From Scatophagus argus (lineage: Eukaryota > Chordata > Actinopteri > Scatophagidae): a DNA stretch of 64,000 nt. The DNA lies in NCBI RefSeq assembly GCF_020382885.2, contig NC_058494.1:27159329-27223328 (forward strand), in the 5' to 3' direction. Positions 11,694-58,715 of this stretch are shown in pieces. Under the pieces are notes generated by a model, which saw only the letters and a list, made by a program, of their open reading frames with translations, was not told where the DNA came from and did no database searches. Positions within the stretch are counted from its first letter, which is position 1. Every line of letters begins with the position of its first letter. The position numbers and the translations under genes were made by a program.

Positions 11694-14130
11694 ATGAAGC
11701 GGGTTCGCACTGAGCAGATCCAGTATGCCGTGGCTCAGTACCTGAAGAGGAGGCAGTATGTGGACACTGATGGCTCCCTGAAGGGCGCCAAGCTCTTTCA
11801 GTCAGCTGAGGAGATGGCCGCCAGCCTCACAGGTGAGCCAACTGCAGCGAGCAAGATGATGGCGTTGTCTTCCACATTAGATAAAGAACACCTCTCACTT
11901 TTTCTCTGCGACATGTGTTCGATACTTTGGTTTCACCTGCAGAGCATGCTGGTGTAATATGATGCGTTCTTGTACCTGTATATCCACAGAGGTGTGTTGA
12001 GTGGCTGATTAGACCTGTTTGTCTTTGTTCAAAGCTATAATTTACACGAGGTCACCAGAGTTCATGTAGTCACAGAGTGATAGATGTCTGCCAAGCCCAA
12101 TTCATTCACTGCATAATGAATATTTAGCTTACTCTCACTCGATGGCGAATCTATTTCGTCCTGCCTTTCTGGTTCTCTGAGCAGTGCAGACGGAGTCGGG
12201 TTGTGCCAGCGTGGTCACTGCTGCTCCCTGCCAGTCTGATCCACAGCAGTATGAAACTCAGTACTCCAGGCTGCGCTCCTTTCTCTCAGGTATCACACTC
12301 GCACTCAAATCTTATTCTTCAGCATTTTTTTGGATGTTATGTGAGCTTGTTTTTCATGACAAAACCCACAGAATAATTTTTATTTCCTCTAAATCAGAAA
12401 CGGAACTCTCCTGGGCCAAGGAGGTCAGCAGCATCCTCTTCCCACTTTTTGTCTACCTCCATCTGGACATGGTGCGCTGCGGCCTGAAGGGGGCAGTAGA
12501 CAGTTTTTACAGTCGTTTCCACGGTGCCTTTCTTCAGGACAGTGAGCAGCGTGCCACCATAGAGCAGCTCCGCCATGTTCTCACAGCCCAGGACATTGCA
12601 GCCAACCCCAAACTGAGTGCTTTTCTGGAACACAAGTACGTGGTTCACCTGACAGAGCCGGCCTACAGCTACCTGCTGCGTCACCTGCAAAGCGAGGACA
12701 ACGGCGCCCTCTGCAGGGCCCTCAGCACCCACCTGCAAGTGGAGGTCACTGCCTTGCGGCGTACAGACTACCAGCTGTATGGAGCTGCCGGTGGAGCAAC
12801 CGCCGCACCAAACTCCACCTCCTCCTGGGCGGGAGTGGACGGGGCAGAGTGCGGAGAGGGGGTGGAGGTCCCCGCAGGGATCCCGCAGAGTGAGGCGGCC
12901 CTGGAGGCTCTGCAGGACAGCATCAAGAAAGTCCGTGAGGGCCCGCCCACGCTCACCACCGTGTGTTTTTATGCCTTCCACCACACGGAGCAGATGCTGA
13001 ACACCGCAGAGGTCTCAGCTGACAGCCGGCTGCTGGCCGCTGGCTTTGACAGCTCCACGGTGAAGCTGTGGAGCCTCCGAGCCAGAAAGCTGAAGGCCAA
13101 ACCGCATCAGGCTGACGTGTCGCTCATCCACTTGGCCTGTGACGTACTGGAGGAGGAAGTGAGTTGAATGAAGGGATGTAGTAAATGTAGTAAACAAATC
13201 GTGGTCTCACAGTAAAAGTAACTGCTGTTGCTATTGTTGTCCTTGTAGTACATGATAGTAGTACTTGAGTACTTCAGCAGTTTAGGATCAAGTCAGTGAC
13301 TAACGTCACATTTCTCCATTGTTTGTCCTCAGGTGGATGAAGAAGACATCTCCGGCAGCGAGATAAAGACGCTGCGAGGTCACAGCGGCCCGGTGTTTCG
13401 TACTGCCTTTCTGACAGACAGCTCCGGTCTGCTCTCCTGCTCTGAGGACACGACCATCCGCTACTGGGACCTGGGTAGCTTCACCAACACGGTGCTCTAC
13501 CAGGGACATGCCTACCCGGTGTGGGACGTGGACATCAGCCCCTGCAGCCTTTACTTTGCCAGCGCCTCCCATGACCGCACAGCCCGCCTCTGGACATTCT
13601 CACGCACTTACCCTCTGCGGGTCTATGCCGGGCACCTCGCCGACGTTGACTGCGTCAAGTTTCACCCCAACTCCAACTACCTGGCCACCGGCTCCACAGA
13701 CAAGACTGTCCGGCTGTGGAGCACCCAGCAGGGGGCGTCTGTTCGCCTCTTCACTGGCCACCGGGGCCCCGTGCTGTCACTCGCTTTCTCACCTAATGGG
13801 AAGTACTTGGCGTCCGCCGGCGAGGACCAGAGGGTGAAGCTGTGGGATTTGGCGTCAGGGACGTTGTTCAAAGACCTGCGGGGACACACAGACAGCGTCA
13901 CCAGCCTGTCTTTCAGCCCAGACAGCAGCCTGGTGGCGTCGTCGTCTATGGACAACTCGGTCCGGGTGTGGGACATCCGGAACTCCCACGGCGGGACGCC
14001 AGCCGACGGCTCGTCCAGCGAACTGGTGGGACTGTACACTGGAAACACCAGCAACGTGCTGAACGTCCAGTTCATGGCCTGCAACCTGCTGCTGGTGACT
14101 GGAACTGCACAAGAGAAAGCAGAACAGTAG
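11694..14130 (+). CDS. taf5l: TAF5-like SAGA/PCAF complex subunit TAF5L (PAF65-beta)
   Basis: Scaffold subunit of SAGA-type histone acetyltransferase co-activators, taking the place of TAF5 of TFIID. Coding exons 11694-11832, 12185-12289, 12398-13158 and 13333-14130 join in phase to 600 residues (human 589). The N terminus [20 protein letters not shown] matches the family. Exon 3 of the coding set holds the TAF5 NTD2 helical domain (around [12 protein letters not shown] and FYSRFHG). The last exon carries tandem WD40 repeats with repeated GH...WD spacing, such as [13 protein letters not shown] and HDRTARLW, ending in [15 protein letters not shown]. The Met at 11694 is chosen because it lies three bases after a splice acceptor and matches the human start. 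An Ala/Ser-rich low-complexity linker before the WD region is fish-like. Confidence 0.97.
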
Positions 14131-18254: not shown

Positions 18255-21200
18255 ATGCCCCTGCAGTCCACTCTGTCCGGCGGGAGCTCAGGCTCCACCA
18301 AGGCCTTGGACACACAGTCAGACGGGAAGTCGTTTGAGCAGCTCAGGCAGGAGTGTCTGCAGAGGGGGGTCCTGTTTGAGGATCCAGACTTCCCCGCCAC
18401 CGACTCGTCGCTCTTCTTCAGCCAGTCTGTGCCCGTACAGATTGAATGGAAGAGGCCCACGGTAGGTGCAGAAGGGGGGCTCGGCTGATGCTCGGGTCAA
18501 AGCAGACAAGTGAGCAGGTTGTGTTAGAAGATCGAAATGTGAAAATGTCTTCGCTTCAGGGTGGAATCTGTTCAGTGAACGCAGACTGTGAGATGCTGAA
18601 TGAATGAAATGTTGAGGTTTTCAGGTGCTCAGAGCTTCTGTCTCTCATGCAGGCTGGTCTTTGATGTGTCAGCTTTGTTTGCTTTAATATTCAAACTGTT
18701 TTAGTGATTAAAAAAAACAAACTTGTCATATTTTACTATTCTAACAGACATTGAAGAACAAAACTCAGTTCAGCCTAAGCAAATAAAGCCTGTTGGCAGC
18801 ATTGATAGAGAGAGTAAGTGTTCACAGATGTTATGGGACTGAATGAATGGAGTGAGGGCTTATTTGACGTTGTTTTTGGCTTTTCATGCAGAAAAACAAT
18901 TAAGTAGTTATGGAGCCGTAGCTGCAGAACCAGTTCTGCTGAGCAGCAGTGTAAACAGAGTGGAGTGCAGGAACAGTTTCCTCACCTGAGCTCCCGACAC
19001 ACACTTGGTTTGAGCTCATCTGCTTTATTTCAGGACACCTGCTCAAACCTGCCTGGTTGTTGTCATGAAATCAGTGCGATGTTCTCGTGTCTTATGCCAC
19101 TGCGAACGCGTCTGTTAGCTCACCTGTACCTGTCAGCATGTCAGCAGACCCGAGCACAGTGGAGGAAACTCACCTGTCGTGTTCTCTACAATGACTGCAC
19201 ATTTCTCCGTTGGGCGTTGCTTCAGAGTAAATGTTTCAGCTGCCTGATTTCTGTGTGTGTGTTCCAGTGACTGGGATCTGAGGCTGATTAATATGCCTGG
19301 AATGCGAACACACCTTTCAAAGCGACATGTCGCCTCTCAACTGTCAGGCTTTGTTGTTTTTGTTTTTTTAAATAAGCCAAACTGTTCTTCTCCTGTTCGT
19401 CCTGCAGGAGCTCTGCCACAACCCGAAGTTCATCGAAGGCGGCGCAGACAGGACGGACATTTGCCAAGGACAGCTTGGTGGGTATACTCGAGTTATCCGC
19501 AGTCTCGGGTTTCGTTTGCACACATTTCACCCATTTACCCACGATGCACCTGTCTGTCATCACAGGGGACTGCTGGCTCCTGGCAGCCATTGCATCCTTG
19601 ACCCTCAAAAAAGACACCCTGACCCGAGTCGTCCCCCACGACCAGGACTTCGAAAACAAATACGCCGGCATCTTTCACTTCCAGGTACGTCACCAGCTGA
19701 CCGGTGAGGCACCCGAATCGAGTCTCATGTGGTCCTGCCGGCGCTTCAGTTTGAATCAGGAAGGACAAAATGAAACTCTGCCTGGAAAAAGACACAAATG
19801 AACCACACAGATTAATGCAGAACGGATGGGAGTAAGTACGTAGTGCTCACTGCCTCAAAACCCCTTTGATCAAATCAGGTAGTGCTGTGAGGGGTACAGC
19901 CGGCTTTCTGAATGGGTCAGAACCAGATGAGGTCAGTCCGCACATTTAATCCAAAGTGTTCACTTTAGCTCAGCTTTGGCAAAGATGGTGAAAAATTAGT
20001 TTGTGAAATGTTGATGACATTTGTAGGATTTGTGTACATGCACACAAATGAACTCCCATAAATAGACAATTTATGGCCATGTGCACAAGGCCTGCTGATT
20101 CACTGTTGTTGAGTTTCTGCTCACGAACGAGCCGAAACAGAAAATTCACAAAATACATCAGCGTCGTTTCACAGAACAGAGCGTCGTGTTTTGTTTCAGC
20201 TGTGGGCAAACTGTATGTTACGTACGAAAGACAAACGGGATGATCAGGGCTGTGAAGGCAAAGTGTTCGGTCTCACGTTTTGCATCTCTGCTTCAGTTCT
20301 GGCAGCACAACAAATGGCTGGACGTCGTGGTGGACGACAGGCTGCCGTCGGTGAGAAATCAACTCATCATGCTTCACTCCGCCTCCAACAACGAGTTCTG
20401 GAGCGCCCTGTTGGAGAAGGCCTACGCCAAGTAACTACACCTCAGCTACACGCAATAAACACACGCACCACCCGTCCTCTTTTACTTTGTTTCCTGCAGA
20501 AGCACAATCACGTCTCAGTACGCAAAAATGTGAAGCTCTGCTGGCTGTTCTGTTACTTACAGCCACCTCAGTGCCTCATCGGCGGTGGAGCTCCAACAAA
20601 AGGAACATTAAAATGACAAGGACGCACAAACATGCACATTTGTGGTTTTGTGTGAAATCGCACTGAAGCTTTCAGATGGACGTTTGTGTGCCCAGACAAG
20701 CTGTGGTCAGCCTGGTGACGTCTTGGTCCTCCATTTTGTTCCGTCTGACTAAATACCTCCAACACCAACGACAGCTGTACTTTGTGTTTAGCATTAATTA
20801 GCCCATGTTAGCATGCTAACACACTAGCAGAAAATGGTAAACATGGTTACTGTTAATTTACATTTACACTGTAAATAAATTTGTGTTGTCTCAACTTGAA
20901 GTCAATATTTTCATGATTGTGAAAACATCCATGACTCAGCATAAAACATATCGAAGACACACATCTCAGGTTTCCATCACTCAGCAGAGTTTTCGCTCAG
21001 TGCATGCTGCGAAGGCTGCTCATGTTTCTGCAGAAACTTATTTTAATGAGTTGATTGAACTCATAAAACAAAAATTAACTTGATCAGAATAAAACTTGTG
21101 TATTTACTTGTTGATGAGAAAATCTCGCTTCCTGTATGATTTTTTACAGTGTGTTAGCATTTTCATTATGTGCGTGTTAGCGAGAGCCTCTTCGCTCTGA

Positions 21201-28578: not shown

Positions 28579-31500
28579 ATGGTAAGCCGACATTTTTAAA
28601 GACGGTTAACCTTGTTAGCTAGCAGCGGCTAACGTCACTGATATGTACCCACCAAGACGGTCCAAAATCACTACAGTAGCTCATTTTGAGTCGCAGTCAT
28701 ATTGTTTCCTTTCACTCTTATTATCCTAGCAAACTAAGGCTGCCTCTGCTCAGCACTGAAAGAAGTTTGGTAGAAGCGAAAATAAAGTGCAGCTTTAAAT
28801 TGTCCGGCTGAGATGTGAGGATGCGCAGAAGCAGAGGCAGGAAACTCATCACAGTGAATTTCTATGAACAACAGCAGTTTGACCAACGGTAAACTGGAGG
28901 TGGTCGGTGTCAGGATGCTCTTCGGGCTGTTGCTGACACTTTAAACTGCTCTTTGTTCTTCTGAATTGTAAATTTGGTCATTATTAAAGGAACAGTCTCC
29001 CCCAAAATGAAAACGCAATCTGTATCTACTCACCCGCACGCTGATTGAAAGTCGAGTGAAGTTCCTTAGTCTACAAAACATGATGAAACATCACTGCTGT
29101 TTGTCTCCTCCAGCCTCATCGAAAGAAGAAGGCGTTCATTGAAAAGAAGAAGGCCGTGACCTTTCACCTCGTCCACAGAAGTCAGAGGGACCCGCTGGCT
29201 GCAGATGAGAAAGCGCCGCAGCACGTCCTCCTGCCCGCCGCCAAGGTACAGTCAGAGGAAGTAAACCTGCTGGTTGTTTTGTGGCTGTTGCCTCTTCTTT
29301 CCTGCCTCGTTAACCTCGTGCTCGGATTTAATTTGCAGCCCTGAAAGTCTTTTGCCTGCTGTGATTCCACGATGTTGATGTTTCTCAGGTGGAATTGGAG
29401 AAGAGACGCGAGGAGCAGAGGAACTTTGGCGTTTTCTTTGACGACGACTACGACTACCTGCAGCACCTGAAGGAGGCGTCGGGGCAGACTGAGCTGGTGG
29501 CAGTCGGCCCCTCGCACGCCGACAGGCGACCTTTTCACCTCCGCGATGAAGACGAGGAGGACGAGCAGGAGGAGGAGGGCGACACGAGCAAAGCCCTTCC
29601 TGTAAGTACTGATTCCTCAGTGTTCAAACACAAATTCAGACATTTGTCTCAAGTTTCGGGCCTTGAATGCAGTGGTGTTGAAAAGGCTCTGAAATGATTC
29701 TCATCCTGTTTGATGAATCAGGCTGCCTCCATCAACCTGCCGTCATCAGTGTTCGCCTCGGAGTTCGAAGAAGAGGTGGGACTCCTGAACAAAGCTGCTC
29801 CCATCTCAGGTGAGCTGTTGTTTTTGTTCTTGTCGCATTTTCACTGCAGTATAAAAGTCCTGCTCCTCTGCGGAAACAATCGGGGCAAGAAGTGAGAGCA
29901 TCTCAAAATGTCTTCGGTGCAGTATGACACAGTTGTGCTGTCAAAAATAGTATAAAAGGAAAATAAATGTTAATTTGGATATGTTAAATCATATCATGAT
30001 TCAGCACACAGTCTGCTAAATTAAACTTTAAACGAGCATACGAGAAGGCCTATTTCTTACCACATTTTGAATTATATACTCTAATTATACTCAAATAAAA
30101 GTTACATTCATTTATTTGGAGAGCCTTTACATAAATGTTTACTTAAACATGTAACAAAATCTAAATTAAGATTATAACTATAATACATATAATAGTATAA
30201 ATACGAGTTTATTGTCATATGTGCAGCTTCTGCAAGCTGTGTTGTTTTTTGGAGTTCTGGTGGTTGCAGTGTCATGAAGACCTTTATCGCCCTCTTCTGG
30301 TGATGAGTGAGAACTGCAACACGTGGACGTAATGCAGAGTAAATGTAGTTTCTTTAGCTAAAGCACCTTTTTAAAGAAGAAATAATTATAGAACTAATAA
30401 TTTGAGGAACAGAGTCATTATTTCACACGTGTTGTCTATATTTAAGTTGTTGCTTTGGATTATTTTGTGTGTTTAATATGTGTTTCAATGTGTTACACTA
30501 CACTGAAGCTGAAACTCACTCAGAAGATTTTTTTATCTAAAAATCCACCTGTAGCGTCACTTTATACCCGAACTTGACTTCATGGTGTTTTTCTCTTAAG
30601 CAGAGTTAAGTGTTTCAGACGTCTTCCTCCTCATCGTCTTGTGTGTTTTTCCCTCCAGGACCACGACTGGACATGGACCCCGACATCGTGGCTGCTCTCG
30701 ATGAAGACTTCGACTACGACGACCCCAGCAACATCCTGGAGGACGACTTCATCATCAAAGCGAACAGTGCGGGCGGAGCGGGCGGAGCAGAGTAAGATGT
30801 GGATTGTGTCACGATCGCACACAAAATGAAGGGAACATTTCAACGTGTTTCATGTTCTGTGACATTTTATTGTGATGTGTAACCCGTGGCAGAGGTGACG
30901 AAGACGAAGATGATGACGATGAGTGGGAGGACACAGACGACGAAGGCGACTTCGACTCCGAGGGCGGGTTTTCGGACGACGAGGACGTGGAAGAAGGCGG
31001 CCGCGGTCGAGAGTTCCTGTTCATGGATGAGGAGACGAAGAGTCGGTTCACAGAGTACTCGCTGTCGTCGTCTGTGATGAGGAGGAACGAGCAGCTCACC
31101 CTGCTGGACGACCGCTTCGAGAAGGTGAACTCTTTCTCACAAACGCCGTGAGGCTTAGACTGAGAGGAGGTACAGGTGGAGTCATGTGACCGCTCTGTGT
31201 GTGTGTGTGTGTGTGTCGGGTTCAGTTGGGCGAATGAGCAAAGAGAGCGACTTTGTTGACTTGGCTTAATGATGTCAGTTTCAGTACTGACGTCCCTGAA
31301 AAGAGGATCTTGTGAAAAGCAAAAAGCTTGCAGTGACCAGCAGCTCTGTGTTCAAACTTTCTAACTTTATTTACAGTAACAACAGGCCAGAGCACAGCAG
31401 CGATGTGCCCGAGACCCGAACCGTCAGCAGCACTCAGGAAACTGTCCGATAGGAAGTTCAGTAGTTTCACTTTAGTGCTTTAAATGCAAACATAATGAAT

Positions 31501-41564: not shown

Positions 41565-43374
41565 ATCACACTGTGCCAACAGCGTCCGACTTCAGCAGAG
41601 TGAAAAGCAAAGCCTCTTATGGGATTACAGCTGCAGTCTTTTACTGAGGAGAGGAAAATATTCTCCCAGGAAAATCATCTCAGCACAGAAATATTACAAA
41701 AGATCAAGTACAAAGCACTGCAGGACGTTACGCTGAGACTACTGCAAGTAGTCAGAGCAAAAAGCTTAAACGTTTGTGGCTCGTAACAAAAATGAGCAGC
41801 ATCTGGACGTCATGTTTCTAAACTTCTCACGAGGTTGAACTTCAGGAGGAGTTCACCTGAAGGGGCCAAACTGCCATATAAAATACTTCAGTCGAGCTGC
41901 TGCGGCTGAGCAGTAAAACCTGTAACAGTCCAGTAATGTCAGACGCTGGAGGAAAACTCCTCTGACTTTTGATTCTGTAAGTACATTTTACTGACGACGC
42001 TTCTGAATGCAAGGCTTCACCTCGTAATGGAGTATTTTTACTTTACGTAAAGGAACAGCCACCCAAAAAATGAAAGTTCACTCATTACCTCCTCAATCCC
42101 CAGTTGATGGGGGCTACAGGGAAGATTCAAATCAGTTTGGGGTGTCTGTTCTTCTTGGATTTGGATTACGCCCTGCGAGCTGTGTGGATTCATTTCATTT
42201 ATTTATTTAGGTTATTTTATTCCATTTAAAAACAAGCTCCCGGTTTCTTCTTGGGGTGAACTGCTCCTTTAAGTAAAGCTGCTGCGCTTCTTCCAGCAAC
42301 AGTTGGTCAACATCAGGAATACAAATGAAATGTCACGTCAGGGCGGCGGGATTACTCAGGCCGCCATCAGTGGTGTCACGACAGGTCTGACTCCTACCCA
42401 TGATCCTCCTCTGCACGCTCGGACCCGCTCCTCGCATTTCTGCCCACTCAGCTCGCCACGTGAGGAATAATTACAGCCGTGCGCCTGGACGGTAATCCTG
42501 CAGGGACAAATCAACCCGCTGCCCCCCCTGCTGGGTCGCCTCCAGACAGATGTTGAAGCCCACAGCTGGAGAGGAGACATCTTTGCATCGTGAGGAACAA
42601 CATGTGGACGCTGAGGACAGGGAGGACGCTGGACGCTCTCTGATGACCCGACCTCGACGTGTGGGAGGAACAAAGTGGTGCTTCGGTTCCCTTTCACTGC
42701 AGTCAGTGCAGGTCCTGAATAAAGTCCATGGATGAAATGCTGAGAAGAAACTCATCAGGTGTTGCTCTCCAGGTTGTTACGTGTGGACGTGGACAGTCGA
42801 GTCCTCTCAGGCCGAACTGAGAAAAACGTTTCTTTGCGGAGCTGAAACACAAAATGTCCGGCCTGAGTCTGTTTGTCTGTCTGTACGATCACACACTCAT
42901 CCTCATCATCTTTAAATCCCCCGACTGAAGCGTGTTGACTTGAGGATTTAAAGCCACTGAGGGAAGCTTCTGCTGGTTTGGGGGGAAGCGAAGCGTCGGC
43001 TTCATCAGGCCTCGTAAGCTTCTGTGTGAAGTCGGACGGAGGTTTAAATCATCTGATGCTGCTGGCGTCGGCCACAAAGTGCAAACGAATGAAGCCATCA
43101 GAGAAAGGAGGGTCGCTTTTGGTGAAGCAGACGTGAAAGATCGAGAAGATCAAAGCTTTGGATTCAGCTGAGCTTTTTATTTGTCCTCTGCAGGAAGATG
43201 TTGAGGTGACTGTAAAGATTCAGCCTGAACTTGGAAATGCTTTGATAAAACATTTGGACTCGCGGTGAGGAGCTCAGGCAGAACTTTGCTTTGTGCATAT
43301 CACAGCACAACACGCGTCACATGTTCACACGAGCTGAATTTACCCTCAGGAGCTGCAGGCCAGTGAAACCGCCA

Positions 43375-43650
43375 CCAAACAGCCACCAAACAGTCTTCAA
43401 ACAGCCACCAAACAGCCACCAAACAGCCTTCAAACAGCCACCAAACAGCCACCAAACAGCCACCAAACAGTCTTCAAACAGCCTTCAAACAGCCTTCAAT
43501 CAGCCACCAAACAGCCTTCAAACAGCCACCAAACAGCCTTCAATCAGCCACCAAACAGCCACCAAACAGCCACCAAACAGCCTTCAATCAGCCACCAAAC
43601 AGCCACCAAACAGCCTTCAAACAGTCTTCAAACAGCCACCAAACTGCAGC
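43375..43650 (+). repeat. Minisatellite of CCACCAAACAG / CTTCAAACAG units
   Basis: About 25 tandem 11-12 bp units alternate between CAGCCACCAAA and CAGCCTTCAAA with a few CAGTCTTCAAA and CAGCCTTCAAT variants. Units are not separated by unique spacers, so it is not a CRISPR array. It stays open in one frame only because the unit lacks stop codons. Confidence 0.95.
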
Positions 43651-45399: not shown

Positions 45400-47868
45400 A
45401 TGCGCGTGCTCCTGGAGAGCAGCTGGATGAGGTTCGGACCGGCCGGCCGAGGCTCCTACGACTGGGTGACGGGCTCACCTTCGACGCAGGAGAAGCAGGT
45501 GAGCGCGTGGAAAGCGTGTGGATTTAAAGTGAATCCCACTGACACGCTGCGTGTTTCTGCTGCTTTCAGGGCTTAGCTGTAGCTGCTGACACATTTCCAC
45601 ACACTTTCAAGTCAAACCAAAACATCTTAAAAAGCCCGTGGACATTTGAAAAACACGCGCGAAAGATGAAGCAGCCAGGTGCGCTCACCGGACTCGAACC
45701 TTCGAACCTCAGGTGGATCGTGACCTTCCTGAAGTCCTGACCCTGTTTCTGTGTCCGGGGTGTTTGGGCTCCGTGTTGTGTGCGTGGATCATGTGATATA
45801 CAAAGTCCCATCACGGGGTGTCAGTGGTGGACGTTGACTGAAGTTCAACTCGGCCTTTCTGACTTAAACTCACCTGAAAACGCGTTTCCTGTTTGACCTC
45901 GTCAGCTTCACTGACTTCTGTAAATATGAGCTTGTTCTGACGCCAGCAACAGGTTGGGACAGGTGCCGCGACAGGTGAGCAGCTTGCCAGGTGACAGGTG
46001 AGGATGTCACGAGCGAGTCAAGGATGTTTGTGAAACCGTCGTAGGTGAACGCGGTTTGTTTACAAATGATTTCATCACCTGTGCTTGAATGTTTTCATTT
46101 TCAAGTCTCTGAGGGGGTTTTTGGACCTTTTCCTGCACTGACAGCTTTAGTTAAATCAGAGATGATGACCTGAAAGACGTCTGATGACGTCATACAACAC
46201 GAAACCCCCGCCAAAAGCAGCGTCCACTCGGGTCCTTCTGCCACAGGGTTCAAAACCGTTTGTTGTTCGTTTATCAGAACTTTGTTTTTCCCTTGTGATG
46301 TCAACTAAAGATCAGGTTTATTGACAGCTGATTTGCAGCAGCACACCTGTATCCTGCCGTGTGACGTCTGCTTTCTGAGCGTCAGGTTTTGTTGGATCTG
46401 CTTCATGCTGGTGCTGAATTATGATTTTTGACACTAAACAAGATGAAATGAAAGCTGAAAGAGGAGAAGCAGTCAGGTGTTGTGCTCAGCACTGGAGACC
46501 TGCCTGTTTCTTCGTGCTTTTTCCAGACTCTGAGGACATCAGCACTTGGTACTGAGGGCAGCTGAACCACACTCAGACGGATTGAGAATTAAAACGGTCC
46601 CCTCCTGCTGAGAGTCTGCAGGGTGCTGGGTCATCCGGGCAGCATTAACTAATTGCTAGAAAAAGGGAGGCAGGGGGAATTTGGGACACCGAGCGGCGTA
46701 AACAGCAGCGCCACATGTTGTCCTCTCACAGCTGGAGGGGTGCAGGATCAGCCTTCATGTCTGGATCAAACACTCACTTGTAAGCACTGCAGACTTACAG
46801 CTGTTCCTTCTCAGAGGAGCTCTCTGAATCTGGAGCACATTCATTCATTCTGCTGTGAAGCTCTGACTGATCTCTTACTCTGGCAGGGTAAACCCCTTTC
46901 AAAAGAAATCTCCCTCCGTCCTGGTTTGTGACGGAGCAGACACAGTTTGTCTGAGACGCTTCACTCTGGTTTGATATGATGTGGGGTTTGAGTGGCAGAT
47001 CAGCTCTGCTGTATGCAAGCGTTGCTTTGTTTCACCGTAGGAGTTTCTGAACAAATCTGAAGGTGTGAAATAAACAACCCACAGATTTAAACTGAACAGT
47101 TTGATCTGGTTTTCTTAAGAGAAGCGTTTCGGCTCAAAGAGTGACAGTCCTAACTGCTGACCTTCAGCTGACTGTGTCTGAAGTCAGCTCCATGGTAGGT
47201 CATCTGATGGTATTATAACATCACCAATACAAACAAAGGCTGTGATTCCTGCTGCTCTTCCCGTCAGCGTCAGCAGTGGCCAGCTAGCTTCACTATGATT
47301 TGGCTGGAGCTAACAAGCTAGCATTTCAGCTTTGTAGGTTAGCTAGCTCGACGCTACATCACGCTTCTTTGCTCTGATTAGTTGTCCCATCGCCTAAATA
47401 CTGACAAATATTTCCTGAAATCAAGTCCTTCTTTTTGATCTCCAGGGCTACAACTGGAATGGGTTGGACCTGGGAGAGGACAGAAAGTCTGAGCTGGTGG
47501 TCTACGTTGTCCTCCCGGTCGTCTCCGTCCTTCTGCTGGCTCTCCTGGTCGGTTTGATCTACCGCCGGTGCTCCCGCAGCAAGCTGAGCCTGGCCGACAT
47601 CATCACTCTGGACCTCCAGGACACGGAGAGCAGTGCAGAGTTTCTCTCCTCCCTGACCAGGAACGCAGAGCGCCACACCAGCACCAGCTCCGACGGATCA
47701 GACGGGGTCTTCGTCATGGTCTACCTGCCCCCACCCTACGAGGAAACGCTGACTAAGATCACCCGTGCCGCCAGCCTCTCCAGCTCCAAAGACGTGGAGT
47801 CGATAAAGATAGAAGACCTGGAGGCCAAGCTGTGTCCCGAGCTCAAGTCCAGCGGCCGATTTGTGTGA
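45400..47868 (+). CDS. smim28: Small single-pass membrane protein with PPPY motif, SMIM28-like
   Basis: Two exons, 45400-45498 and 47446-47868, join at a GT-AG intron in phase 0 and give 173 residues. Exon 1 encodes MRVLLESSWMRFGPAGRGSY, which resembles the start of human SMIM28 as I remember it. Exon 2 gives a transmembrane helix (about 50-72, LVVYVVLPVVSVLLLALLVG), then a basic stop-transfer YRRC and a cytosolic tail with LPPPYEETL at 127-135. PPPY is a WW-domain ligand, so the protein may recruit a NEDD4-type ubiquitin ligase. There is no signal peptide; the N terminus is probably outside the cytosol. Function is not known to me. AATAAA at 48234-48239 is a likely poly(A) signal. Confidence 0.7.
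45499..47445 (+). other. smim28 intron
   Basis: A 1.95 kb intron between the two coding exons. It has no further exon I can support. Confidence 0.6.
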
Positions 47869-49841: not shown

Positions 49842-51907
49842 TTACAAGCATTCAGCGAAGTACTCAGAGGCATTTTTGTCTCTGCAGCCTCTCTGGTAGA
49901 TGAGCCTGATCCTGCAAATAAGAACAAGAGAGCAGCACACATGTTGTTTCCTGTTAAGCAAAGTGACTGTTTTCATTTCAAAATTAAATGGACAAAAGCA
50001 GCACATAATGACCGTACTTTCAAAAACGTGAAGATATTAACTCACATTTTCTTTAACTCCTCCCAGTGTGCTGCTCCAAAACCGTTGTCACTGTGAAAAT
50101 ATTCAGAGTAGAAACACACGAGAGTTTAGTTCCTAACCGAATCACAGACTCTGAATCTTTTTCTTCACGTTTTTCAATTTGACCCTTTAGATGCCACAGA
50201 GTCTTCTGTCTCAGGGTTCTTTTCAAAGATCGAGAATCTTTATCAGTTCAGTTAACAATAAGCAGAGTGAGTTAATCCGATCAAATACGTGAGAAAAACA
50301 TAAAACAGGCGAAACTGTTGTTCAATAAAGTGAACAAACATCAACATACAAAACATTCTGAGTGAACTTACACAAGATTGGTGAAGATCTGCAACAGGCA
50401 GTTCATGTCGTCATGTATGTCGTCATCAAGCAAGTCTGAAATGAACAGTTTGGCAGTTTGGCAAAGTTAAAACGCAGAAAACTTGAAACGTTTACACCAG
50501 AAGAGAACACACTCCAACTGTGACTTAAAATTTATACTCAAAAATAAAATTTGCCATTGAAATCAAAATTTTGGTTGAAAAAAGAAAAAACCGAAACACT
50601 TGAACTGAAAAAAGTTGTATTGCAGTTGAGATCAAATATGACTTTTTATTTGAATCATTTGTTTACTGTATCTCGATGTGTTTTCATTGAGAATCTTCTG
50701 ATTGGAGTTTCTTTGCTTCAGGCTACAGCTAACACCTGTAGGACCGACACACTGGACTCGAAGCGAACTCGGACCGAGACTCACCGTTGCAGTCCATGTC
50801 ACAGATGTTGGGCGACGGATTTGTGCCGTCGCTGCAGACCAGATGATTGCTGAGCTGGAAAAGCCCATAGAGGGTCCAGACCGCATCGTCGTCATGTGGA
50901 GTCCCGGTGTTGGACTGAGTCCGCCTGGCGTGCCGTTTGTCCCGGATGTTCCTCTCCCTACTGTTCTCCCCGCTGTGATGTTCTCCCGACTCGGAGGTCA
51001 GCTGGTTGACCGCGCTGGTGTTAAAACCCGATGCCACCTCAGCGTGACAGACGACTGAAGGCAAAGGAGAGAAACAGAAGTGACAGATCTCATTATCACC
51101 CCAGACTCTCAAGTGGAGGATAAATGAAAAGTTTAACCTGCTGGTGGTGTTAAATGAAAAGTTAAGAGATCTTCAAAGTGTTCACAGTCCGTCCTGCAGG
51201 GAGCCTGAACATTTGTGGTCCTTTAGTTGTAGACAAACTGTGCAGAAAAGCACAACCACGACCAGAGAAGGTCCTAAATGACACCTTTTCAGATCAGTTC
51301 ATGATCCCTGATCCTCCTGAGACTTGGGTTACGCTGAGCTGAACGGCTGAGACATTTCATGCTTTTCTTCCTGTTGTTTTTACACATTTTAAAACAAGTC
51401 CCCAGCTATTCTGTAGACTAACTTCACCCAGCTTTCCATCAGCTCGGGGGTGAGGAGATAATGACTGAATTTTCCTTTTTTGAGTGAACTGTTTCTTTAA
51501 TTTAACTGCTGTTATCCAACACATGATTGTAGAATGAAGCTCAGACTTATTCACTCAAACTGATGAATAAATAATCAATATGTTTTCTGTACCGCGACAG
51601 CAGCAGGTACCTCTGGGCTGCGGCTGGGAAATCAGCCAAATCTGTTATCCCCTGAAATTTTTCTTCCAGTTAGTGAAATATTAGACACTTATTTTTCTAA
51701 ACCATAATATTATGTTTGTAACAGTTACAGCTGGTACTCACTCTTGGCCACTAAGTTCTCCACCGTCAGCCCCTTCCGCTTCGCCTGCTCCGGCAGGTCA
51801 CCAATCACACTTGTCAGTTCATCCCTCAGTTCACATTTGGACACAAGTCTTCCTTCAGTCAGACTGCAGCCCAGCGCTGCCAAAAGAAACAGCAGAAGTG
51901 CTCTCAT
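49842..51907 (-). CDS. LysL-A: catalytically dead C-type lysozyme-fold protein with beta-domain insertion
   Basis: Four exons in phase, as in lysozyme genes: 51907-51742, 51054-50785, 50435-50372, 49911-49842; 189 residues. Signal peptide 1-19 (MRALLLFLLAALGCSLTEG). Eight fold cysteines are all present: 25, 58, 129, 140, 144, 158, 176 and 188 (KCELRDEL, IVCHAEVASGFNT, YGLFQLSNHLVCSDG, NICDMDC, RGCRDKNA, AECL). The calcium loop LLDDDIHDD is intact. The catalytic Glu35 position is Ala63 and the Asp53 position is Leu117, so no muramidase activity is expected. About 35-40 extra residues (about 73-112) replace the active-site loop and contain RDKR-H (93-97). An alpha-lactalbumin-like, secreted, calcium-binding role is inferred. 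The Met at 51907 is chosen over an upstream one because it starts the signal peptide, 37 bases after a TATA box. Confidence 0.88.
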
Positions 51908-54018: not shown

Positions 54019-56832
54019 TCATTTGCAACCTCTGAACAAGTTTTGGACGTGATGACACACAGGAGGAGCCGTCTTGAAGAGCAACCTGTTTTTAATGAAG
54101 AAAAGTACAACAAATTGCTAAGTCAGCAGTTGCTGGTTTAATTTCTCTTGGCCTTTTATTACTCTTTGCCATTCAATGCCTGCACTTCTGTTTTGCTTGT
54201 TCTTGATCTTTGCTAGCTGGAAGACTTCCTGTACATGAATATACACTTGAGTCTTCTTGATATGTATATGAATGCAGTATTCAGCAGGGGTACAAAGCTA
54301 ACTAAAATCTTCTGGCTTTTACTTGTCCAGGAAAGCAAGGCACAGGACGTCCACATAAAAGTTTAAGAAAGTTATAATATTTTTTTAAAGTCTCTTGGAT
54401 GTAAATGTCAAACTTTCTGGAAACCTCTGGCCATTTAAACAACTTTAAAAGCAAGAATATAACCCTGTATGCTAACCTACGTCTGTAACTCAAGGTCCAC
54501 TTCTTTTTTTAAAAAAAACAAAAAGGTTTGTGACAGGATTTCATGGTATTCAACACACTGTGCTTTTGGCTCAGCATCACTGGCTGACATTACAAATCCA
54601 AATTTAATATATTCAAGGTTGTATTTCCTCTTTTCTCTTTCAGAAATGATCCATTTTGTGTCATAAGGGAAAGTTAGCAAGCTAACGGTGGAAAAGCACG
54701 TTTGTCTCTCCTTGATGATGCGTCTTTATTGGTGGTGATATTCAACTGTAACAGACTTTTGAAATTTTAATTTGCCTTTTTTTATTTATGTGAATTCTTG
54801 AGCGCATTTAGAGATAAAAAAATGGCTGGCTTTGTTGCTTTGTCACGGCTCACTGGTTGAGATTAGCTGTACTAACTCACCACCAGCAGCTAGGCTAACT
54901 GTGATGCTAATCATGCTAGACATGGCTGACATACCAGTCATTAACCCATCTGAGTAGCACATATGCACAATTGCATTGCTCATCTGCCAGACAGCCAGAC
55001 AGGGAAAACCACAGCTTCAGTAAGAAATATTCATTTAAGTTTTATAATGACTATGATTACATTATACTAATAATTATTTTGTAGTAACGTAGCATTGGTT
55101 TCAATATCCATATTACTGTTCGCAAATATCTGTAAAATTGTATTTTAATGATTTGGCCAATAAAGGCCCTCTGAAGTGAAAGCAGAACTGTACTACGACA
55201 GGCACCCACACATCACAGGTCAGTCACTGGCAAATGAAATGATAATCATTACATTATTAAACATGAATCAACAGTTTAACCGAAGTTCTGCACTTTGTTT
55301 AAATCGTATTGCTGTACTTAGCTGTCCAAGATGGTAATCAAATCACAGACAAGAATACGGTGACAGTATCTAAGCAGGCTGTACGGTGCTGTACATGTAC
55401 AGGTGAGTGTATGCATGTGTGCTGATACGAAGTATTACTTTACTGTACAGAAACTTACCACCAGTAACCAGAGTTCACAAAGCATGCAACGTCGTCCGTG
55501 ATGTCGTCGTCGGTGAAGGCTTGAGGAGACAAAGGGGACAGTTATTAATGTGCAAACCATCAGTGAATTCTCTTTAATCTGTACATCTCCAGGTTCAAAC
55601 TCTCACCTTGGCAGGATGTACGGCACACGTTTCTGGACGGGCGATAACCAGAATTGCAGAAGTATTTGTCAGACAGCTGGAAGACCCCGTAAAAGCCGAG
55701 GGATGTATGCCTCCTCTTGGGCTTCCTGCGAGGCACGTGTCGCTTCTCACGTTCCCCACCTTCCTCTTGGCTCTCTTCGTCCTCGTCGTCCATCCCGCTG
55801 TCTTCCTGCTCCAGCTCCTCCTCGCCAAACTCGTCCTTTCCCTCACTCAACAGTTCCTCCAGGCTTCTCTCCATCTCTGTCATGTCCGACTCCTCGCTGG
55901 ACGTATCAGCCTCTCGCTTTCGTCTGGCCAGAGTTGTACGGGTGGTTGTTGGTGTCGTGGTTGTTGGTGTCGTAGTTCTTGGTGTAGTGGTTGTTGGTGT
56001 CGTGGTTGTTGTAGTGGTTGTTGGTGTCGTGGTTGTTGTAGTTGTTGTTGGTGTCGTGGTTGTTGGTGTCGTGGTAGTTGGTGTAGTGGTTGTTGGTGTC
56101 GTAGTTGTTGTTGGTGTAGTGGTTGTTGGTGTAGTGGTTGTTGGTGTCGTGGTAGTTGGTGTAGTGGTTGTTGGTGTCGTAGTTGTTGTTGGTGTCGTGG
56201 TTGTTGGTGTCGTAGTTGTTGTTGTAGTGGTTGTTGGTGTAGTGGTTGTTGGTGTCGTAGTTGTTGGTGTCGTAGTTGTTGTTGTAGTTGTTGTTGGTGT
56301 CGTGGTTGTTGGTGTCGTAGTTGTTGTTGTAGTTGTTGGTGTCGTGGTTGTTGGTGTCGTAGTTGTTGTAGTTGTTGTAGTTGTAGTAGTTGTAGTAGTC
56401 GTAGTTCTGCGTTTGCCAAACACCCTGACCAGCTCAGTGTTCAGACGGGACTTCAAGAACACTTGACAGGTAACTGCAGCAAAACCAATCATGCAAGCAG
56501 GACGCAAACAAGGAAGAAGAAGAGAAGAGAAGAAGAAAGGGAGATGAATTCAGTGCATTGAATAGACGAGAGAAGAACTCTCACTCTTCTCTGTGGTCCA
56601 CTGACAGCTAAATGGTTTTGTGACTTTCTAACACTCAGGACGCCCAAATCTCAAAATGTTTTTTAGCCTCACCTATCTCAATGATCCTTTGCTTGAATTT
56701 TTGCAGCCGTTCGGGCAGAATGATCATCTCCTCAAACTTTTCTTTAAGCTCGCATTTAGAGACGATCCGGGCCTCAGACAGGCTGGGCACCAGAACCGCC
56801 ACAGCCAACACCACCAGCAGCCCCAGCTTCAT
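54019..56832 (-). CDS. LysL-B: lysozyme-fold protein with mucin-like, acidic and polybasic insertion
   Basis: Coding exons 56832-56673, 56473-55607, 55519-55459, 54085-54019 keep phase; 384 residues. Signal peptide 1-21. Cysteines of the lysozyme fold: 27, 56, 326, 337, 341, 355, 373 and 383 ([50 protein letters not shown]). The calcium loop FTDDDITDD matches that of alpha-lactalbumin. The catalytic Glu and Asp positions are Lys and Phe. Exon 2 is 867 bases, against 270 in LysL-A and about 160 in ordinary lysozymes. It holds residues 77-231, almost only Thr and Pro, then RRKR (237-240), an acidic segment (241-294), REKR-H (295-299) and PRRKPKRRH. The last exon is read in the frame ending [11 protein letters not shown], which restores the terminal cysteines. 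Tandem with LysL-A; function unknown, secreted and heavily O-glycosylated by inference. Confidence 0.85.
55941..56405 (-). repeat. Coding minisatellite for the Thr/Pro tract of LysL-B
   Basis: Imperfect repeats of about 12-15 bases, seen on the plus strand as GTTGTTGGTGTCGTG and GTTGTTGGTGTAGTG, encode runs such as TTTTPTTTT on the minus strand. All 155 codons stay open, and one Arg interrupts near the C-terminal end of the tract. On the plus strand it also opens two long frames of Gly/Cys and Val type, which are shadows. Confidence 0.95.
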
Positions 56833-56842
56833 GTCAGCAGCT

Positions 56843-57714
56843 TCTGCGGGGAAAAGGAACAAATTACAGTGGATTGAAAAGGATGGGATAGAGTGACACG
56901 CTCTGTGTGCCTCATCCAGTGCAAACTGATTTCACTTGGAACCAATTTCCACTGGAAGATAACAGGACTTTTTAAAGGCCTGAACAGGTGATCAGTGTGC
57001 AGTGAACAGCGCCCTCTGGTGGCGAGAACAGCTTCTGTTAATGAAAAGTCAAATGGGGTGAAAGAGCAAAAGAACTGCAGAACTGAGAAACATTTCGTAA
57101 ACAGGACCATTAATCAATAATGAAAACATCTCCTCTACCAAGACGCATTATTGCCAGACAGTCAGTGATTCCATCAGGAAGGAAGTCCGAGTGAACAATA
57201 GGTCTTATCTGATTGCATTTTTAAAACATTTTTCTTAACCAAATCTGTCTCCAATTCAAGTGGAAATAATTTGTGAGGGTTTTTGCAGCTTAAAAGTGTA
57301 TTTACAAAAAGCATGTTTTTACAGAAGAGCTTTTTATTTCTTTTCTCTACAAAGTCAGATTAACTGATTTTCATCAGTTATGTGCAGATACAGTGAGCAG
57401 AGGCAAATCACTTGTTTATGGACACGTTTTGACTAGTTTTTTTGTTAATTGATTTGATTTATTTTATTATCTCTGTTTGTCCAGCATTAAACAAATGATA
57501 AATAAAAACATCAATCAATTAATTGCCATAATTGGTAAGGTATATATATAATTAAAATAGATCTGACAATATGGAATTAGAAATCACAGCAAAAGAAAGG
57601 CGAAGAAAAGACGTTTCCTACCACTCGCGGTGTCTCTGTCCTGATCGATGCTCGTCCGTGTGTGTGGGTGTTCGTGTGTTCGTGTGCACACACACATGTA
57701 TGTGAGTTTATATA
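56843..57714 (-). promoter_or_regulatory. 5' UTR intron, leader exon and TATA box of LysL-B
   Basis: The exon with the start Met begins at 56843 after an acceptor CCCCGCAG. A donor (GTAGGA) at 57621 and a TATATAAA at 57707-57714 on the minus strand fit a leader exon of about 57622-57680. The intron between is about 780 bases. The leader exon is inferred from signals only. Confidence 0.55.
57009..57022 (-). promoter_or_regulatory. CTCF-like motif CCACCAGAGGGCGC
   Basis: The minus strand reads CCACCAGAGGGCGC, agreeing with the CTCF core consensus at every position as I remember it. It lies in the 5' UTR intron of LysL-B. A related motif is at 62025-62038. Confidence 0.45.
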
Positions 57715-58359: not shown

Positions 58360-58715
58360 AAGTGGTGGTGATGGTGGTGGTGGTGATGATGGCTGTAGTG
58401 GTAGTGGTGGTAGTAGTAGTGATGGTGGTGGTGATGGTGATGGAGGCGGTGGTGATGGTGGTGGTGGCTGTAGTGGTATTGGTGGTGGTGATGGTGGTGG
58501 TGGTGATGATGGTGGTGGCTGTAGAGGTGGTGGTGGTAGTGGTAGTGATGGAGGTGGTGGTGATGATGGCTGTAGTGATGGTGGTGGTGATGGTGATGGA
58601 GGCGGTGGTGATGGTGGTGGTGGCTGTAGTGGTATTGGTGGTGATGGTGGTGGTAGTAGTGGTGGAAGTGATGGAGGTGGTGGTGATGGTGATGGAGGCG
58701 GTGGTGATGGTGTGG
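58360..58715 (+). repeat. GGTGGTGAT/GGTGATGGT minisatellite
   Basis: About 350 bases of 3-bp-phased GGT, GAT, AGT and GGC units, with two larger copies sharing GGCGGTGGTGATGG and GGTGGTGGCTGTAGTGG phrases. It reads as Val/Met or Gly/Asp in all three plus frames, so the open frames are compositional. Confidence 0.95.

Follow-up and report, generated by a model that had tools for sequence, protein, structure and literature searches.

How does a lysozyme-family protein come to carry a long threonine- and proline-rich tract within its fold, and is such a protein still an enzyme? We asked this of a gene, here called B, in the fish Scatophagus argus. The window, by which we mean the whole stretch of DNA that was analysed, is 64,000 nucleotides long and belongs to contig C2 of a genome of 570.7 Mb in 48 contigs. 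Gene B was modelled as four exons that together encode 384 amino acids and are free of stops and frameshifts. All six splice sites follow the GT-AG rule, the intron phases are 1, 1 and 2, the protein begins like a signal peptide (by eye), and its eight cysteines match the eight conserved cysteines of lysozymes. The Pfam family Lys (PF00062) matched the whole protein with 49.4 bits (E 6.6e-13; curated cut-off 27). Exon 2 is 867 bases long, with AG before it and GT after it, and a preliminary description of this DNA, made from its letters, had given the limits of this exon, which lies on the minus strand, exactly. In this model gene B is an intact lysozyme-family gene that holds mucin-like, acidic and basic segments in one exon (Table 1). 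We infer a start site and a non-coding first exon upstream of the coding exons.

The inserted sequence has a definite order: a remnant of family sequence is followed by the Thr/Pro tract, the residues LARRKR, the acidic block with REKR and the basic segment, after which the lysozyme sequence resumes. The tract contains 133 Thr, 23 Pro and 2 Arg (Thr/Pro 156/158), and since we call Thr/Pro-rich tandem repeats mucin-like, the term applies to it; Extensin_1 (Pfam) gave a weak match to B, far below its cut-off, that comes from composition. In the acidic block 28 of the 58 residues are Asp or Glu, and the basic segment has a net charge of +6. The whole insert lies between Cys56 and Cys326 of B, the equivalents of Cys30 and Cys64/65. 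Between the Cys30 and Cys64 equivalents there are 269 residues in B, 70 in its tandem sister, gene A, and 33 in the ordinary lysozyme of this genome (the last counted by eye), an excess of 236 residues in B and 37 in A. The preliminary description had placed a Thr/Pro tract, an acidic block and a polybasic block between the Cys30 and Cys65 equivalents, inside the fold and not at a terminus, and in this it was right. Its count of 155 Thr/Pro residues has to be corrected to 156, and the internal insertion, although real, is not peculiar to B, as A bears a shorter insert in much the same position. The furin-type motifs and the calcium loop described below were absent from it.

Table 1. Parts of genes B and A and of the insert in B: feature, position in the window, strand, remarks
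Gene B, exon 1	56673..56832	(-)	splice model; signal-peptide-like start, Cys6 equivalent; GT donor, ends in phase 1
Gene B, exon 2	55607..56473	(-)	Cys30 equivalent, inserted domain, second beta strand, Cys64/76/80 equivalents
Thr/Pro tract	55932..56405	(-)	158 codons; 15-base repeat that chiefly gives TTTTP units
Furin-type motif RRKR	55914..55925	(-)	residues 237-240, before the acidic block; motif search
Acidic block	55740..55913	(-)	58 residues, net charge -23, ends in REKR
Furin-type motif REKR	55740..55751	(-)	residues 295-298; motif search
Basic segment	55710..55739	(-)	before the second lysozyme half
Gene B, exon 3	55459..55519	(-)	calcium-loop-like DDDITDD at 55491-55511, Cys94 equivalent
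Gene B, exon 4	54019..54085	(-)	joins in phase 2; Cys115 and Cys127 equivalents, stop
TATA-like site	57709..57714	(-)	upstream of gene B
AATAAA	53754..53759	(-)	downstream of the gene B stop
Gene A, exon 1	51742..51907	(-)	tandem sister; splice model
Gene A, exon 2	50785..51054	(-)	holds the linker with RDKR
Gene A, linker	50873-51004	(-)	44 residues, a few of which belong to the core; about the same site as the insert in B
Gene A, RDKR	50933-50944	(-)	motif search; sole RxKR of A, within its insert
Gene A, exon 3	50372..50435	(-)	calcium-loop-like DDDIHDD at 50407-50427
Gene A, exon 4	50046..50090	(-)	small additional exon with no counterpart in B or the ordinary lysozyme
Gene A, exon 5 and stop	49842..49911	(-)	splice model

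By comparison with ordinary lysozyme, the insert in B probably lies near residues 46-52, in the turn of the first beta hairpin (hen numbering). An alignment of the exon-2 proteins of A and B with MAFFT set the gap elsewhere and paired the helix of A with the acidic block of B, so the insertion point rests on the match of the C-x8-NT pattern between B and ordinary lysozyme (SRLNT against SRYNT, by eye). The fold predicted by AlphaFold2 for the two exon-2 proteins, each modelled singly with no alignment, was uninformative (mean pLDDT 48.4 and 44.7).

Gene A (49842-51907) lies about 2 kb downstream of B on the same strand and has five exons, which encode 204 residues. It shares the intron phases 1, 1 and 2 with B and has one further intron. 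The Lys profile matched A with 59.1 bits (cut-off 27), the best stretch covering only profile positions 48-111 of 123 in A and 52-94 in B. The protein has the eight cysteines and one more in its signal-peptide-like start, and it is without a Thr/Pro tract.

Does the fold of either gene still belong to an enzyme? In an alignment with lysozymes, from which the inserts had been trimmed by hand beforehand, the places of Glu35 and Asp52 are taken by Lys and Phe in B, and by Ala and Leu in A. An active glycosidase was rejected for both proteins, as the catalytic residues are missing. The preliminary description spoke of an insertion into the active-site loop, a wording that is not borne out: with the Glu35 and Asp52 equivalents lost, the fold no longer has an active site for an insert to enter. 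The calcium loop reads DDDITDD in B and DDDIHDD in A, compared to TDDITVA in ordinary fish lysozyme, and A and B have predicted acidic ligands that match those of alpha-lactalbumin. Catalytic residues lost and calcium loop kept is the reverse of what is found in ordinary lysozyme.

What, then, might B do? We propose, with a probability of about one half, that B is a secreted, non-enzymatic lysozyme fold that is cut in its inserted loop to give two disulfide-linked chains, one of them with a mucin-like arm. The motif R-x-K/R-R occurs twice in B, once at either edge of the acidic block, and once in A, and both REKR in B and RDKR in A (RDKR-HARR) are followed by His and a basic stretch. The B chain would fold with the disulfides of the family, and on its way through the secretory pathway it would be cut by a furin-type convertase at both RRKR and REKR. 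In the precursor the charge of the basic segment would be offset by the acidic block, which would then be released and could keep the basic tail quiet until then; pro-pieces in some host-defence peptides keep the basic part quiet in this way. The product would be two chains joined by the Cys6-Cys127 and Cys30-Cys115 bridges, the pairing of the lysozyme family. The Thr/Pro arm, densely O-glycosylated, would form the end of the first chain, and the second would start with the basic segment, next to the former substrate cleft. Mature B would bind a polyanion, a glycan or a partner protein, with no cutting of peptidoglycan, and the mucin arm would serve as a spacer or as a tail that retains the protein in mucus. 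Anchoring of B in mucus or on the egg or skin by the putative mucin arm is possible. With its catalytic residues lost, its arm inside the fold and an insert in its sister as well, B looks less like an enzyme than like a new binding protein. If the proposal is true, the pair would show how a fold, here one of the best studied of all, can be cut open during maturation so that it bears a glycan arm.

Could the insert simply be a flexible loop that stays uncut, a glycosylated spacer in which the RxKR sites are incidental basic clusters? The inserts of A and B are not significantly alike beyond composition, as 407 of 5000 shuffles reached their score, which fits such a loop; REKR and RDKR could therefore be convergent or have arisen by chance in Arg-rich sequence, and with many Arg and Lys residues near the motifs a chance RxKR is not rare. 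However, the acidic block of B has a motif at each of its borders, and the only RxKR of A likewise precedes His and basic residues. We regard an uncut loop as somewhat unlikely, and we prefer processing of the loop into two chains.

Is the tract translated, and is it more than a repeat? An open frame is in itself no evidence, because the 15-base repeat lacks stop codons in other reading frames as well. We therefore counted the codons of the tract that depart from the commonest letter: there were 67 of 158 at the third position, 2 of 158 at the second and 24 of 158 at the first, the last being the 23 Pro codons and one Arg. The difference between the second and third positions has a Fisher p of 2e-21, a value that overstates the case as repeat copies are not independent. 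The five-codon units (15 of the 24 units) show 11 minor variants, 10 of which are silent third-position changes; by columns, 3/5 third positions vary compared to 1/10 of the others (p only 0.08). Upstream of B, at 58362-58712, lies a triplet array of the GTG type (351 bases), which looks non-coding and varies at all three positions (24, 15 and 21 of 117). The Pfam match and the silent variation rule out a chance open frame for the whole of exon 2.

The tract could also be an expansion without function, a 15-base minisatellite that lengthened in a loop where growth was tolerated, the gene being duplicated and relaxed. A pattern of 32 bases from this repeat matched the genome twice, both times in exon 2 of B (exact matches; a lower bound), and A is without the tract, which looks like local, paralogue-specific growth. 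Against this, the variation is nearly all silent and the frame is intact over 384 codons. Moreover, A bears an insert without the tract, which shows that there is more to the loop insert than the repeat. We consider a functionless expansion quite unlikely.

Part of the tract could also be spliced out, so that the usual protein would have a short loop like that of A. With crude weight matrices, the best in-frame internal intron of exon 2 (56429 to 55677) scored 9.1 as a pair, and single internal sites were fair (donor 55759, 8.6; acceptor before 55632, 7.1), so B may have other transcripts. In contrast, the exon's own sites scored 7.1 and 10.7 (together 17.8), and the internal intron would also delete the core residues YGVFQ. 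Splicing that removes the tract from the usual protein is very improbable, and we keep to a protein that contains it.

How firm is the rest of the gene model? We searched the window in six frames (segments of at least 15 residues) with a profile built without A and B, and above the inclusion threshold it found only the second exons, that of A with an E of 2.3e-10 and that of B with an E of 6.7e-6. Exon 3 was recognised weakly (0.033 in A, 0.38 in B). For exon 1 of B the E-value was 0.011 with a model that includes B and 180 with the model without A and B, and for exon 4 it was 8.6 and 770, respectively. Exons 1 and 4 of B, being unrecognised by the profile, rest on cysteines, phase, splice sites and position. 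Exon 4 is the weakest part of the gene B model (acceptor score 4.9), and its call rests on two cysteines, the W-to-C spacing, the phase and the stop. A decaying pseudogene or an assembly artefact would account for the long branch of B in the tree described below (2.8 changes per column) and for two exons that lack support from the profile free of A and B, but is scarcely credible for a gene with no stop or frameshift, GT-AG at every splice site, consistent phases and TATA-like and AATAAA sites.

We also looked for further copies and relatives. A genome search with PF00062 at E<=0.001 found the lysozyme on contig C20 only and missed A and B, which means that further diverged copies are possible. 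Protein searches with segments of A and B returned each other (E about 0.002) and weak matches; two of the latter, L009 and L005, showed no lysozyme-like frame by eye. Phage records gave no match to B, and viral contigs no relative of exon 2 of A. No fish lysozyme with a mucin insert was found in the open-licence literature searched, judged by titles and the beginnings of abstracts. The threonine-rich linkers mentioned in passages of PMC4122206 belong to chitinases.

Where do A and B belong within the family? Among solved structures, the best match of A was the calcium lysozyme of horse milk (E 1.3e-10), and that of B was alpha-lactalbumin (E 6.8e-10). In a tree of ten rows, A and B came together with a support of 99/100. 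They stood beside alpha-lactalbumin and the calcium lysozymes with 78/87, and beside alpha-lactalbumin alone with 91/88; neither placement is firm, both end branches are long, and a tree that groups A and B with two fish lysozymes instead was not rejected (p-AU 0.208). A 2011 survey by Irwin and others (PMC3141428) considers that birds and mammals may have acquired calcium binding separately, so the calcium loop alone is no proof of descent. The survey also reports a single lysozyme-like gene in each bony fish genome, and it found no good candidate for alpha-lactalbumin outside mammals. It is an unlikely though conceivable extension of our proposal that A and B are a fish tandem pair of the alpha-lactalbumin/calcium-lysozyme branch, older than mammals, matured by furin in the beta hairpin to two-chain, disulfide-linked binding proteins, in one of which the freed end of the loop has become a mucin arm. 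A non-catalytic tandem pair with a calcium loop in a fish bears on the origin of alpha-lactalbumin.

Synteny with LALBA was judged by one marker, PF13891, which we take to be the family of its neighbour C12orf41/KANSL2: three genome matches lay on C8 and C11 (two), and none on C2, the contig of A and B. On the plus strand of the window, the neighbouring genes include a TAF5-like gene (TFIID NTD2 plus WD40, 12181-14127), a calpain gene (19376-19798) and an LTV gene (29365-29694). An open frame of 149 residues at 47419-47865 (+) resembles a small single-pass membrane protein in its hydrophobic stretch and PPPYEE motif (both by eye) and had no Pfam match at E 0.01; of the eight window frames compared to Pfam, four had no match. 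At 43366-43644 there is an 11-base minisatellite of about 25 copies (unit AAACAGCCACC), which lies in two overlapping plus-strand open frames.

Finally, we asked how B compares with known proteins. One close likeness is to alpha-lactalbumin (LALBA), a non-catalytic c-lysozyme fold with the calcium loop DDDITDD and a YG-FQ-S core as in B; it modifies a galactosyltransferase. The human protein has no insert, and alpha-lactalbumin is described in passages of the survey as occurring in mammals only (PMC3141428). Calcium-binding milk lysozymes (horse 2eql, dog 1el1) share the calcium loop and the SKCEL start with this pair of genes, but they keep Glu35 and Asp52 and have no insert; the survey passages describe these milk lysozymes as bacteriolytic (PMC3141428). 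The sperm lysozyme-like proteins (LYZL, SPACA3) are likewise lysozyme folds turned to other roles, and the SPACA3 structure 4yf2 matches A with an E of 5.7e-8. LYZL4 has one inserted residue in the beta turn, whose length is conserved in other LYZL proteins according to passages of PMC5104373, compared to the 37 (A) and 236 (B) extra residues here. A large insert in the lysozyme beta hairpin was not met in the literature searched or among the solved relatives aligned. The ordinary c-type lysozyme of the same genome (L001, on C20), whose closest solved relative is rainbow trout lysozyme, shares the cysteines and the intron phases 1, 1 and 2 (phases by eye) with B, whereas its catalytic Glu and Asp are present, its calcium ligands are absent and it has no insert. 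Mucins and other Thr/Pro-repeat proteins have Thr/Pro tandem repeats as B does, but in B the tract lies inside a globular domain, and not between domains or at an end.
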